Below, piece after piece: positions 12,818 to 17,705 of a DNA stretch of 25,237 nucleotides. A program made the translations under genes and the position numbers. The notes under the pieces were generated by a model that worked only from the letters and a program-made list of their open reading frames with translations, searched no databases and was not told where the DNA came from. Each line of letters starts with the position of its first letter. Within the stretch, counting starts at the first letter, position 1. Source of the stretch: a virus; IMG/VR virus record IMGVR_UViG_3300035698_011416, positions 1-25,237 of that record; one strand, given 5' to 3'.

Positions 12818-13504
12818 TTAAATATCACTGCTGATCGGCAGCATCAGGCCCGTTTGCCAGAAGTCCCTTTGGATCGGCTCGCTGGCATAGATAGGCGTCC
12901 AGTCGGAAGGATTACCATCCACTCGTGACAGCCGCAGACAACTTTTATTGAACGCCTCATTGAATATCGTCATCCGGTTCCAATCGGCAATCGCCCGGGC
13001 ACCATAACCACTGGCCCGCTCGATGATCGCCTTTTCCAGCCGCTCCAGGGGACATTCATCATCGGCGTTAGCGTTGAACGCCTGCGGCCATTTAGTACAG
13101 AACAGCCGGATAGGATGGCCCGCCTCGTTAGGCGTCCGCCATAACTTCAGGTACTCACCTTCTTTAGTGTAAAACGACGGGGTACCAGAACCGTCTTCTT
13201 CCGGGTGGGGGAACTGGGCGTTAAACATGCGGGGCGATTTATAAACTAATTTTAGCGACTGGCTACCGTTAAGGTAGCTGGCATAGAGGATATCCTTTAG
13301 GCCCTGTGGTAGTTGATACTCCAGTCCATCCGCCCGGGTAGTGACACTTTCATCGACACCTTTCATATCCGACCAGTTACGGATCGTGGCCGCGTCCGTC
13401 ATAGACCAGTTAAGCCACTGGCGGATATAGGCGTCAGTCAGATTACTGCGGTTGCCTATGTTGAGACGAACCTGAGTAATCATTTCGCTTAATAACATTG
13501 CCAT
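12818..13504 (-). CDS. Head-tail adaptor (tail tubular A / gp11-like) protein
   Basis: I choose the ATG at 13504 (228 residues, MAMLLSEMITQ) because GGAG lies nine bases upstream. An in-frame ATG at 13552 would read through a G/C hairpin and give an atypical N-terminus. The protein opens with a helical segment (MITQVRLNIGNRSNLTDAYIRQWLNWSMTDAA) characteristic of phage adaptor proteins, then a beta-rich centre (LEYQLPQGLKDILYASYL, YLKLWRTPNEAGHPIRLF) and a C-terminal helical part (LERLEKAIIERASGYGARAIADWNR). Adaptors of this type form the dodecameric ring joining portal and nozzle. Length and gene order fit. Family assignment by layout rather than exact match. Confidence 0.7.
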   Translation of the reverse strand: MAMLLSEMITQVRLNIGNRSNLTDAYIRQWLNWSMTDAATIRNWSDMKGVDESVTTRADGLEYQLPQGLKDILYASYLNGSQSLKLVYKSPRMFNAQFPHPEEDGSGTPSFYTKEGEYLKLWRTPNEAGHPIRLFCTKWPQAFNANADDECPLERLEKAIIERASGYGARAIADWNRMTIFNEAFNKSCLRLSRVDGNPSDWTPIYASEPIQRDFWQTGLMLPISSDI

Positions 13505-13520
13505 AGTCGTATCTCCGATA

Positions 13521-13546
13521 GGGGGGAGGCAATTACACCTCCCCCC
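13521..13546 (-). promoter_or_regulatory. G/C-only hairpin in the adaptor leader
   Basis: Nine G/C-rich bases (13521-13529, GGGGGGAGG) pair perfectly with 13538-13546 (CCTCCCCCC) around an eight-base loop, immediately upstream of the adaptor ribosome binding site. There is no U tract after it, so it is not a standard terminator. It may stabilise mRNA ends, mark an RNA processing point or partly attenuate transcription between the highly expressed capsid block and the tail genes. Confidence 0.6.
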
Positions 13547-13573
13547 CACCATCCAGCAAGGAAGGAAAGAGGA

Positions 13574-13927
13574 TCAAAATCCGGTAGCATAGAACGAGCA
13601 ACTGGCAATAGTGCCAGGAGTGTTATTTATAAAAGCGGCTGGCGGGTTCGTTGACGCCGCCCCTCTCGTTGATAACTGGGCAAAAAGCCGCAGCACCCCA
13701 TTCTTGTGGGTCGTAGAAGGGAACCACTGGGCAACAAAACCACTTTGCAGGCCTAACCCTACTTTCATATAAATACACTTACCTTTGAAATACTTTTCGA
13801 TACCGCTGGTAGCAAAAGCTGAGTTACCAGACAGATTAAACTTTCCGGTTATCTGCCGAGCGTCACGACCATGCGACCTCTGGATACCTAGAGTATTAGT
13901 GTTTACGACAATTTCTCCAAGTGCCAT
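13574..13927 (-). CDS. Small decoration-like protein, paralogue 2 of a tandem pair
   Basis: 117 residues from the ATG at 13927, preceded by AAGGAG; a longer frame to 13966 would overlap the neighbour and lacks a ribosome binding site. It is clearly paralogous to the upstream gene: both start MALGEIVV, share FNLS.NSAFATSGIEKYF, QSGFVAQWFPSTT or PSGFVAQWFPSTT, KNGVLR and end NNTPG..ASCSF.ATGF. The composition is beta-rich with no membrane segment. Placement in the block directly after the capsid and its other tandem paralogues suggests a capsid decoration, head fibre or similar surface protein. Function is inferred. Confidence 0.7.
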   Translation of the reverse strand: MALGEIVVNTNTLGIQRSHGRDARQITGKFNLSGNSAFATSGIEKYFKGKCIYMKVGLGLQSGFVAQWFPSTTHKNGVLRLFAQLSTRGAASTNPPAAFINNTPGTIASCSFYATGF

Positions 13928-13938
13928 CTTAATACTCC

Positions 13939-14286
13939 TTAAAAGCCGGTAGCCCAGAAAGAACAACTTGCCAACTCGCCAGGCGTATTATTCCAGAACG
14001 CAGCCGACAAACCACTTTGGGCCGCCGAAGTTACCGATGTCTGCCCGAATATCCGTAGTACACCGTTCTTGCGTGTAGTGGATGGAAACCATTGGGCGAC
14101 AAAGCCACTCGGCAGCGTCACATCTACAAAGGTTGTCTTGCCACGAAAATACTTTTCGATACCACTGGTAGCGAACGCAGAATTAGCGGACAAGTTGAAC
14201 CGCCCAGTCACCGAACGCAAGCCACGGCCTATCCGCCTTTGAAAGCTAACCGAGTTGGTAGCTACAACAATTTCTCCTAAAGCCAT
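13939..14286 (-). CDS. Small decoration-like protein, paralogue 1 of a tandem pair
   Basis: 115 residues, ATG at 14286 with GGGAG upstream (AGGGAGTATTAAG, the same spacer as its paralogue). The leader, start and end of the two genes match, while residues about 48-58 and 80-98 vary, including a two-residue length difference (VDVTLPSG versus MKVGLGLQSG). The protein is beta-rich with one shared cysteine near the end (ASCSFWATGF). It was formed by tandem duplication followed by divergence. Probably exposed on the virion surface; no named family recognised. Confidence 0.7.
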   Translation of the reverse strand: MALGEIVVATNSVSFQRRIGRGLRSVTGRFNLSANSAFATSGIEKYFRGKTTFVDVTLPSGFVAQWFPSTTRKNGVLRIFGQTSVTSAAQSGLSAAFWNNTPGELASCSFWATGF

Positions 14287-14331: not shown

Positions 14332-15099
14332 TTAGTCAATGAAGATATCAGCCGGGCAATAGATGCTGCTGCCATCCACCTTACCTAGCGACTGACCTAC
14401 GATCATCGCCGACATGGTTGCCCCGGAAATATTACTGGTCTGGATCATCAGACACTTACCGGCACTAAGTACACAGGCGGTAGCGCATTTGAGCAGACCG
14501 TATCCCTTTGTTTGCAGCAGTTGGTAACCGCTGGTAGTGGCAGTCTGGGTACAAGCTCCAGCCGGAGTGCCGCAAGGGGTCATTCCGACACCACTAAGGG
14601 CAAACTCGATACAACCATAATACGGGTTAGGGGCAAAGATACCACGGGAACCGGTTGACAGGCCAGAACTTATCCCGCCTCGTATACGGAACTTAGTATA
14701 GCCCGTACCGCCCGGTTGTATCCAATCGACCGGATAAACGCCAATGCCCTGGCCAGAGAGAACTTCAAAGTATCCGTCTTGAAGTTTGTCAACCCAGGTC
14801 GCGCTGACCCGAGATAAACCATAGGCCCGGATAATAGTATTACCCGTCGCATCTCCGTATCCATTAACCGTGGCTGCCGGTGTAAACTGATCGCCGGCAA
14901 CGGAAACACATTGAAGGTTTCTGCCATTCTTGCGAACTATAACGCCTCTACGGGGCGTAGCGTCAGCAACGTGGGCCCATACATAGCGGCGTTTACCATC
15001 CTCGAAATAGGTTCCCAAAGGGATACCACGGGCGGTGGTTTGTTGACCCGCCTGTAGTAACTGTGCGGCGGACATCCCTTGTGATACTATCTGTTCCAT
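14332..15099 (-). CDS. Capsid-associated decoration/fibre-like protein, paralogue 3 of three (cysteine-rich)
   Basis: 255 residues, ATG at 15099 after TTAGGAG. It shares with the two upstream genes a nearly invariant N-terminal part (MEQI.SQG, GTYFEDGKRRYVWAHVADAT), a middle beta region (RAYGLS.VSA.WV..LQDGYF, GVYP.DWI...G.GY.KFR.RGG), a TTSGYQLLQT motif and the C-terminal YCPADIFID. This copy has eight cysteines against two and four in the others, six of them not shared by the two-cysteine copy (for example TPCGTPAGAC and LLKCATACVLSAGKC). Position after the capsid gene suggests head decoration, head fibres or an adhesin. No enzymatic motif was seen. Confidence 0.7.
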   Translation of the reverse strand: MEQIVSQGMSAAQLLQAGQQTTARGIPLGTYFEDGKRRYVWAHVADATPRRGVIVRKNGRNLQCVSVAGDQFTPAATVNGYGDATGNTIIRAYGLSRVSATWVDKLQDGYFEVLSGQGIGVYPVDWIQPGGTGYTKFRIRGGISSGLSTGSRGIFAPNPYYGCIEFALSGVGMTPCGTPAGACTQTATTSGYQLLQTKGYGLLKCATACVLSAGKCLMIQTSNISGATMSAMIVGQSLGKVDGSSIYCPADIFID

Positions 15100-15116
15100 A
15101 ATTTAACTCCTAAAAG

Positions 15117-15887
15117 TTAGTCAATAAAAATGTCCGCCGGACAATACTTGGCAATAGCTGGCTTGCCTAGTGATCTTGCCACTAGCACCGCTGAAGCTAT
15201 ATCTGTAGTTGATACCGTACTGCCATAAAGAATCATCAGCCCGGCACCAGAATCCAGTGCTGTCGCGCTGGCCGCTTTCAAAAGACCAGTACCGCGCGTC
15301 TGCAATAGCTGGTAGCCACTGGTAGTCCCGTCCTGGGTAATAACACCAGCGGCTACTCCCTGACTGCCGAAATTAGTAACACTGGTAAGAAACTCAACGC
15401 AGCCACGATACGGGTTAGGCAGGAACCGGCTCCGTGAGCCAGTTGACAGGGGCTTGGATATCCCGCCTCGAACACGGAATTTAGAGTAGCCAGCCCCGCC
15501 AACTTCTATCCAGTCCAGCGGATAGACGCCGGCTGCGGTACCAGACATGACCATAAAGTAACCGTCCTGAAGGGCGGCAACCCACGTAGCACTTACGACC
15601 GACAGGCCATAAGCCCGAATGGTAGTGTTACCCACCTCGTCACCATAACCACGCTCCGTAGCCGCCGGCGGGAAATGCGCTCCAGTTACGGAAACCAGAC
15701 CCGTATTGCCGGTGTTCTTACGAACAATAACCCCAGTGCGAGGGGTAGCGTCGGCGACATGAGCCCATACATAGCGGCGTTTACCGTCTTCAAAATAAGT
15801 ACCCAGTGAGATACCAAGGTCCGTGGTCTGCTGGCCCGACCGAAGCAGTTGGCCAACAGACAATCCTTGTGATACTATCTGCTCCAT
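15117..15887 (-). CDS. Capsid-associated decoration/fibre-like protein, paralogue 2 of three
   Basis: 256 residues, ATG at 15887 preceded by TTAGGAGTTAAATT, the same leader as the downstream paralogue. The constant N-terminal 55 residues and the C-terminal block match the siblings. The stretch from about 165 to 215 differs (CVEFLTSVTNFGSQGVAAGVITQ, LLKAASATALDSGAGL), and only two cysteines remain. The organisation is beta-rich throughout. The constant ends plus variable interior fit a virion protein with fixed attachment surfaces and a changeable exposed part. Function inferred from position and pattern. Confidence 0.7.
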   Translation of the reverse strand: MEQIVSQGLSVGQLLRSGQQTTDLGISLGTYFEDGKRRYVWAHVADATPRTGVIVRKNTGNTGLVSVTGAHFPPAATERGYGDEVGNTTIRAYGLSVVSATWVAALQDGYFMVMSGTAAGVYPLDWIEVGGAGYSKFRVRGGISKPLSTGSRSRFLPNPYRGCVEFLTSVTNFGSQGVAAGVITQDGTTSGYQLLQTRGTGLLKAASATALDSGAGLMILYGSTVSTTDIASAVLVARSLGKPAIAKYCPADIFID

Positions 15888-15897
15888 AATTTAACTC

Positions 15898-16671
15898 CTA
15901 AGCATGTTTGTCGATAAAGATATCTGCCGGGCAATAGACGCTAATAGACTTTTTGCCCAACGATCTTGCAACCGTTATCGTTGACGCATAGGTCGTTGAA
16001 ACTATACTGCCAACGATACCAAGACCGGCACCAGAATTTATCGTATGTGTATTCGATGCTCTCAAAAGTCCGATACCCCTGGTCTGTAGCAACTGATAAC
16101 CACTGGTCGTGGCAGCCTGGGTGATAACACCGGCGGCTATATGCCCTGACAAATAGCAGTTATCGACACCGGGGAACTCTATACAATTACGATACGGGTT
16201 AGTAAAAAACTTACCCCACGAAGCGGTCGAAAGACCTGCCTGCAAGCCGCCACGGATACGGAACTTGGTATAACCGGAACCACCCACCTCTATCCAGTCG
16301 ATAGGATAGACACCGATACCAGTCCCCGAAAGAACCGTAAAGTATCCATCTTGAAGGAGGGTAACCCAACTGGCACTTACGACCGACAGGCCATAAGCCC
16401 GAATGGTAGTATCGCCAGGTCCGTCACCGTATCTTCCGTTAGTAGCCGCCGCGGTAAATTGCGTACCGGCAACCGAGACACACTGTGCGTCCCGGGCATT
16501 TTTACGAACAACAACTCCGATTCGTGGAGTGGCATCGGCAACGTGGGCCCATACATAACGACGCTTACCGTCTTCAAAGTACGTGCCCAGTGGGATACCA
16601 AGATTGGTCGTCTGCTGGCCTGCCTGAAGCAGTTGGCCAACAGACATCCCTTGAGATGCTATCTGCTCCAT
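15898..16671 (-). CDS. Capsid-associated decoration/fibre-like protein, paralogue 1 of three
   Basis: 257 residues, ATG at 16671 with TTAGGAG upstream, directly after the capsid gene. Same architecture as the next two genes, with a three-residue C-terminal extension (KHA) beyond YCPADIFID. It has four cysteines. Silent-site differences from the siblings in the constant N-terminal region are numerous while the protein there is almost unchanged, so the duplication is old and the N-terminus is under strong purifying selection. Being first after the capsid gene, it may be the most highly made copy. Decoration or head fibre role inferred. Confidence 0.7.
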   Translation of the reverse strand: MEQIASQGMSVGQLLQAGQQTTNLGIPLGTYFEDGKRRYVWAHVADATPRIGVVVRKNARDAQCVSVAGTQFTAAATNGRYGDGPGDTTIRAYGLSVVSASWVTLLQDGYFTVLSGTGIGVYPIDWIEVGGSGYTKFRIRGGLQAGLSTASWGKFFTNPYRNCIEFPGVDNCYLSGHIAAGVITQAATTSGYQLLQTRGIGLLRASNTHTINSGAGLGIVGSIVSTTYASTITVARSLGKKSISVYCPADIFIDKHA

Positions 16672-16703: not shown

Positions 16704-17705
16704 TTAGCCGGTCAGAGAGATATTGTCGATACAGCCAAGATTTTCCGCCGAATTACGGGCGGTAGCACAAACAGAAAGAATCTGTTTGTGTTTGGTCTTG
16801 GGCACGTTCACCTGTTCTTTCCAGTCGGTCCAGTCAAACCAGTTATCCGAATCTACACATAAGTCGATGGCTCTATCGTCGATAGCCCGCATCTCGCCAC
16901 TGGGCGCCAGCTTACTCATGATAATATCAGCACCTTTGTACTTGATAGTCATATAGTTGTTGTCGCCAACCTTGGTCTCACTGCGGGTCAGGAAGTCAAG
17001 CTGGTTCTTCTCGTACATCTCGGCAATCGTCTGGGTAGTGAACCACCAGTCAACCTTACCATCTTCAAGCTCGATGGTGTTCTGCATCGTCAGCATATCG
17101 TCCGGCAGGAACTGCAAGGCAGGCCGCCCGGTCATGGAGATATACTGAGTTCTCCACCAAGAGAAGACCGCCGGGTCGATATTACCGATCACCGTAGTCT
17201 GTGACGCCCTGGCCGTCGCCGGAATAAGGCGGGTCAAGCCATCAGGCAGCAGGGTAGTGCCACCGGTACCGACCACTATCGCCTCTTCCAAATCCTTCCG
17301 CATACTCTTGACAGTATTATCTTCTTTGATTTTGATAATACTGTGAAGACGGCTGGAGCCCTTATTGACTCGCTGGTCCTTACGGGGAAAGACCACATTG
17401 TAGGCGATATTCTTAGGCAGATATGTCGCACCGGCCAACGGATCAAAGTTATTCATCGACACCCCGCCGGTCTCACTTATCCAGCCACCGTGGGGGTTGA
17501 CATCGACTTCCATCGGAATGAAGAACTGGTCGCCGCCGTCACTGAGTAAGCCAGTGTTCTTGCGGGCCAGGAATTTGGCCAGCAGAATCTTCTCTTTGAA
17601 CACCAGGTCAACAATGGTATTTTTCCGCTTAATCATAGTGGAGACAAACAACTCATCTACCGGAATTGTGCCGCTGCCACTTCTAACATACGTTGACTTT
17701 GCCAT
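16704..17705 (-). CDS. Major capsid protein
   Basis: 333 residues, ATG at 17705 with AGGAG seven bases upstream. It follows the scaffold gene and precedes decoration-like genes, the expected place for the capsid protein. Features that fit an HK97-fold coat protein are a helical N-terminal segment with hydrophobic residues (TIVDLVFKEKILLAKFLARK), a long beta-strand/E-loop-like part (GGDQFFIPMEVDVNPHGGWI), a spine helix (TVKSMRKDLEEAIVVG) and a C-terminal mixed alpha/beta part including NYMTIKYKGADIIMSKLAPSG and a VDSDNWFDWTDWKEQ loop. The leader contains a terminator-like structure described separately, implying special expression control. I could not match it to a named coat family; the assignment rests on context, length and composition. 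Confidence 0.8.
   Translation of the reverse strand: MAKSTYVRSGSGTIPVDELFVSTMIKRKNTIVDLVFKEKILLAKFLARKNTGLLSDGGDQFFIPMEVDVNPHGGWISETGGVSMNNFDPLAGATYLPKNIAYNVVFPRKDQRVNKGSSRLHSIIKIKEDNTVKSMRKDLEEAIVVGTGGTTLLPDGLTRLIPATARASQTTVIGNIDPAVFSWWRTQYISMTGRPALQFLPDDMLTMQNTIELEDGKVDWWFTTQTIAEMYEKNQLDFLTRSETKVGDNNYMTIKYKGADIIMSKLAPSGEMRAIDDRAIDLCVDSDNWFDWTDWKEQVNVPKTKHKQILSVCATARNSAENLGCIDNISLTG

Follow-up and report, generated by a model that had tools for sequence, protein, structure and literature searches.

What are the three similar genes that stand in tandem directly behind the capsid gene of an uncultured, short-tailed virus, and why has its lineage kept all of them? The virus is known from environmental DNA, and the window analyzed here is its entire viral contig of 25,237 bases. 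On one strand, the genes run from the terminase (PHROG 38) through a 181-aa protein, the portal and a likely scaffold to the capsid, and from there through the paralogues p1, p2 and p3 and a second tandem pair, q1 and q2, to the head-tail adaptor. The adaptor is followed by a 131-aa protein, an 819-aa structural protein (PHROG 3287), a series of large proteins, and a sigma-70-type factor with regions 2 and 4 encoded at 752-1387 (PHROG 351, E 5e-22). This gene set is the head and tail module of a short-tailed phage. The major capsid protein (333 aa; 16704..17705, minus strand) matches the PHROG 9953 major head protein (E 3.7e-21), and the adaptor (12818..13552, minus strand) is of the SU10 type (Pfam PF24175 SU10_adaptor, E 1e-13). 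The portal was assigned from a weak match to PHROG 156; the protein between portal and capsid is likely the scaffold by its position and composition, and the large proteins past the 819-aa protein may be ejection proteins by position. The terminase relatives found are 23-29% identical, so the virus is isolated, and queries with its capsid and portal against viral contigs returned no match.

The three paralogues are encoded on the minus strand as p1 (257 aa; 15898..16671), p2 (256 aa; 15117..15887) and p3 (255 aa; 14332..15099). A preliminary description of this DNA had pointed to three genes of 255-257 residues directly behind the capsid gene, with constant ends and a divergent interior, and this picture was upheld. 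All three open reading frames are intact and of the described lengths, each is preceded by a strong AGGAGT ribosome-binding site, and p1 starts 32 bases past the capsid gene. The proteins are 65-68% identical in pairwise comparison, and all three agree in 147 of the 260 alignment columns. Their longest uninterrupted stretch of agreement spans exactly 23 residues, as had been described (LGTYFEDGKRRYVWAHVADATPR, p3 residues 28-50), and lies on the minus strand at 16522..16590 in p1, 15738..15806 in p2 and 14950..15018 in p3; a run of at least this length arose in 7 of 100,000 column shuffles of the alignment. At the other end, the constant C-terminal PADIFID is part of a longer string, YCPADIFID, that is identical in all three copies (p3 14335..14361; p2 15120-15146; p1 15910-15936; minus strand). 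The divergent interior, placed at about residues 155-225, is real but is not one region. Divergence falls in columns 161-180 and 201-235, and since the conserved block TQ..TTSGYQLLQT.G.GLL (approximately columns 184-203) separates them, the variable part consists of two loop-like segments. In p3 these are approximately residues 166-180 (14560..14604, minus strand) and 204-236 (14392..14490, minus strand).

The preliminary description had also taken the many silent differences to mean that the copies are old and all maintained, and the substitution pattern agrees. Synonymous differences among p1-p3 are saturated (pS 0.67-0.77, against pN of 0.21-0.25), with pS at 0.55-0.87 even within the conserved N-terminal block. 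The first 60 columns show the least nonsynonymous divergence (pN 0.07-0.10) and columns 161-235 the most (0.31-0.43), and pN is below pS in every region. Because silent sites are saturated in the N-terminal block as well, its constancy cannot be accounted for by recent duplication or gene conversion, and both were ruled out. The copies are thus old and under purifying selection, with constraint weakest in the two variable segments, and with pN below pS throughout, nothing points to positive selection having diversified an exposed surface. The tandem arrangement in one operon, with a second tandem pair alongside, could also be read as a transient or dispensable amplification, such as a recent duplication, a product of gene conversion or an antigenic-switching cassette. 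We regard this as very improbable, as it is contradicted by the saturated synonymous sites in all blocks, by the intact frames and ribosome-binding sites of all copies, and by the purifying selection between them. Silent-site saturation likewise disfavors a diversity-generating retroelement, and no reverse transcriptase was found among the scanned proteins of the window, a contig that may be a fragment.

As direct queries, p1-p3 found no match in viral contigs (two pattern sets), genome contigs or phage records, nor in Pfam, PHROGs or the PDB. The route to their relatives led through a fibre-like protein at the contig end (24393-25214), which identified 28 viral contigs. Its last 180 residues, at the C terminus, are approximately 50-80% identical across these contigs, and most of the contigs have nothing further in common with the window over the compared stretch; judging from sequence, this C-terminal part is a mobile fibre-like module. 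One of the 28, L027, has its terminase, portal and capsid in common with the window. On the contig of L028, the locus L038 carries a 272-aa gene behind a different type of capsid gene, and searches seeded with L038 gave 11 and then 49 plus 2 loci. The resulting family comprises about 40 distinct, diverse proteins of approximately 255-290 aa. In nearly all loci with a recognized capsid gene, the family gene lies directly behind it, and these capsids are of two types (PF19821/PHROG 3437 and PHROG 9953). At L097/L098, a 161-aa open reading frame that by eye resembles a homing endonuclease (L097:3143-3628) lies between the capsid and family genes. The most conserved features of the family (GT..(W)DG+..Y, D.L.GGY, NPY, Q-T-x-G and Q.AGF.iD) are spread along the protein. 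Searches of Pfam, PHROGs, NCBIfam and the PDB yielded no match to the family, which is therefore undescribed in these libraries, although its role is likely of a known kind. One member sits in a bacterial MAG; among 298 genomes of that class it was the only one found, and the family thus looks viral rather than like a general bacterial gene.

Several comparisons link p1-p3 to this capsid-neighbor family. When the paralogue alignment was compared by hhalign with nine family members, the P value was 0.079; with 44 members it was 5.9e-4 over 93 columns, and after independent realignment without the paralogues it was 4.4e-4. The real alignment scored 31.8; the best of 200 column shuffles reached 25.9, and the reversed alignment 15.0. 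Taken singly, the paralogues gave P values of 0.001-0.0055; the other 20 window proteins all stayed at 0.14 or above, so that the matches are 3 of 23 proteins, the paralogues themselves. In a search with a family HMM built without the paralogues, p1, p3 and p2 ranked at the top of the 23 window proteins. In a joint alignment, p1-p3 and the family show the motifs in one common order from end to end (GT..DG+..Y, D.LqgGY, NPY, T..gY..QT.G and Q.AGF.iD), with the C-terminal YCPADIFID aligned to the last of these. The paralogues also resemble the family, including L087, L095 and L038, in post-capsid position and in length; they differ in carrying an insertion after Q-T-x-G and in missing both the final C-terminal strand (MLQIS) and a portion of the central region. 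The evidence that p1-p3 are distant homologs of the family, at about 20% identity, is good but not overwhelming, and comes from profile comparison.

Copy number was compared across viruses with the capsid type of the window, PHROG 9953, which is common to L095, L087, L027 and L008. The window has three copies, L095 two, L087 one, L027 one or none, and L008 none recognized; in related viruses one copy is usual. Both L095 and L087 share capsid, portal and adaptor with the window. The two L095 copies are in tandem, counted over the whole record, and L096 looks like the same virus recovered from another metagenome; L087, like L088, has one copy over the whole record. The L027 locus has one 176-aa gene at the post-capsid site. 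Its motifs are similar to those of the family, but 2 of 100 shuffles scored higher than the real comparison, and kinship is not claimed. Behind that gene (L027:18332-20067) are encoded a 383-aa protein resembling a glycosyltransferase-methyltransferase fusion and a 195-aa deacetylase-like protein, both recognized by eye only. A 456-aa neighbor at L094 was rejected as an extra copy, as it gave a short match only. In the family tree, p1-p3 form one clade (100/99), indicating that their duplication occurred in this lineage, and the two L095 copies do not pair together. The gene would thus have multiplied at least twice; the very long branch of p1-p3 (4.3 changes per column) calls for caution here. 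Directly downstream of p3, with the same leader sequence, the window encodes the second tandem pair, q1 (115 aa; 13939..14286, minus strand) and q2 (117 aa; 13574..13927, minus strand), which are 67% identical to each other (E 1e-53) and unrelated to p1-p3. No relative of q1 or q2 was found elsewhere. In L038, L062 and L087, too, the family gene is followed by small tandem pairs.

AlphaFold on p1-p3 alone gave no usable fold (pLDDT 29); the L087 member, modeled from 44 sequences including the paralogues, gave an all-beta fold with a pLDDT of 87.5 and a pTM of 0.83. When the paralogues are mapped onto this model, 67% of strand columns are invariant among p1-p3, compared to 52% of other columns. 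The first variable segment corresponds to a loop between strands, following the NPY strand, and most of the second is inserted, compared with L087, behind the Q-T-x-G strand. A Foldseek search of the model against solved structures gave no hit at E ≤ 1e-3. Short of this threshold were a partial and weak similarity to a capsule polysaccharide lyase (E 3e-3, approximately 100 columns) and, at only E 0.075 and TM 0.36, the capsid-stabilizing protein of TW1. Among predicted viral proteins, two matches of 160-164 aa were found, with TM scores of 0.65-0.72 when normalized by target length; one comes from "Podoviridae sp. ct9A73", and neither has a named function. The lyase similarity, the location of the genes between capsid and adaptor, and the fact that no obvious tail-fibre gene was recognized between the adaptor and the large tail proteins would fit virion proteins off the shell, that is, tail fibres, whiskers or a neck structure near the adaptor whose loops bind receptors. 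We consider this rather unlikely, since across two capsid types the family adjoins the capsid gene and not tail genes, no fibre or spike family matched, and the fold hits are not significant.

The closest precedent in gene order is phage SU10, where gp10 is numbered between the capsid (gp9) and the adaptor (gp11), has a predicted Ig-like fold resembling a known minor capsid protein, and was not seen in the map of the SU10 head (PMC9509320). Like SU10 gp10 and Epsilon15-type minor capsid proteins, p1-p3 are encoded between the capsid and an SU10-type adaptor in a short-tailed phage; they differ in having no sequence or fold match to these proteins and in number, SU10 having one such gene and the window three plus a pair. 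As to an Ig-like fold, the all-beta L087 model has no significant PDB match. T4 Hoc, T5 pb10 and Sf14 gp20 would be similar to p1-p3 in combining a conserved capsid-binding part with a variable outer part, but in these proteins the two are separate capsid-binding and Ig domains, and no Ig match was found for p1-p3. The C-terminal half of the family faintly resembles a cement-like protein in L026 (E ~0.13) of the Phage_cement_2 kind (PF09956); the PF09956 Pfam model itself matches neither the window proteins nor any of 44 family members. To solved or characterized decoration proteins there was no sequence match in the PDB searches and no fold match by Foldseek. That gp10, in the same gene position, is not visible in the mature SU10 head would also suit p1-p3 as assembly factors or as another kind of non-virion protein encoded in the head operon by chance. 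The all-beta fold, loop-centered divergence, position and maintained duplicates fit a surface protein better, and we judge a non-virion role to be unlikely.

Taken together, position, fold class, loop-centered divergence and the SU10 gp10 precedent point to a capsid-surface protein. We propose, with a probability of about 0.6, that p1-p3 are lineage-specific tandem duplicates encoding an all-beta virion protein, most likely a decoration or cement protein or a head fibre on the capsid surface; the duplication, its age and position, the distant kinship, the family's all-beta fold and the concentration of divergence in loops are shown by the data, and we infer from them that the proteins reach the virion, touch the capsid and divide the labor among the copies. 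The preliminary description had seen here the pattern of surface proteins with a fixed docking part and a diversified exposed part. The post-capsid site, the similarly placed relatives and the beta scaffold with diverging loops favor the surface assignment; there is no trace of positive selection for a diversified exposed part. A fixed docking N-terminus is one possibility; the motifs spread along the protein resemble strands that define the fold more than a dock at the N terminus, and conservation across the family suggests a scaffold distributed over the whole protein.

Under the capsid-surface reading, each copy would fold on the same conserved beta scaffold, through which all copies would contact the capsid lattice or their sister subunits. 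The two loop regions, differing in each copy, would then give it another outer surface or fit it to another position on the head, possibly a different quasi-equivalent capsomer site or a place in a mixed oligomer. A specific form of this, in which p1-p3 act as one surface system that tiles the head, each on its own quasi-equivalent position or all in a mixed oligomer, is speculative and in our estimate improbable. Three distinct versions on one head had been called unusual, which is apt for a trio of tandem paralogues but not for multiple kinds of decoration or head-fibre protein as such. Sf14 carries two kinds of decoration protein, gp33 and gp20 (PMC11821841), and the head-fibre proteins gp21 and gp29 of crAss001 serve different capsomers of one head (PMC10172136). 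Unlike p1-p3, crAss001 gp21 and gp29 are not known as tandem paralogues, and no homology between them and p1-p3 was found.

These results point to a previously undescribed protein family whose genes accompany those of at least two capsid types, and to a lineage that has multiplied this capsid-neighbor gene and kept all copies. If the proteins coat the head, p1-p3 would show in nature how the loops of a decoration protein diverge after duplication, and site specialization on one capsid would become testable.
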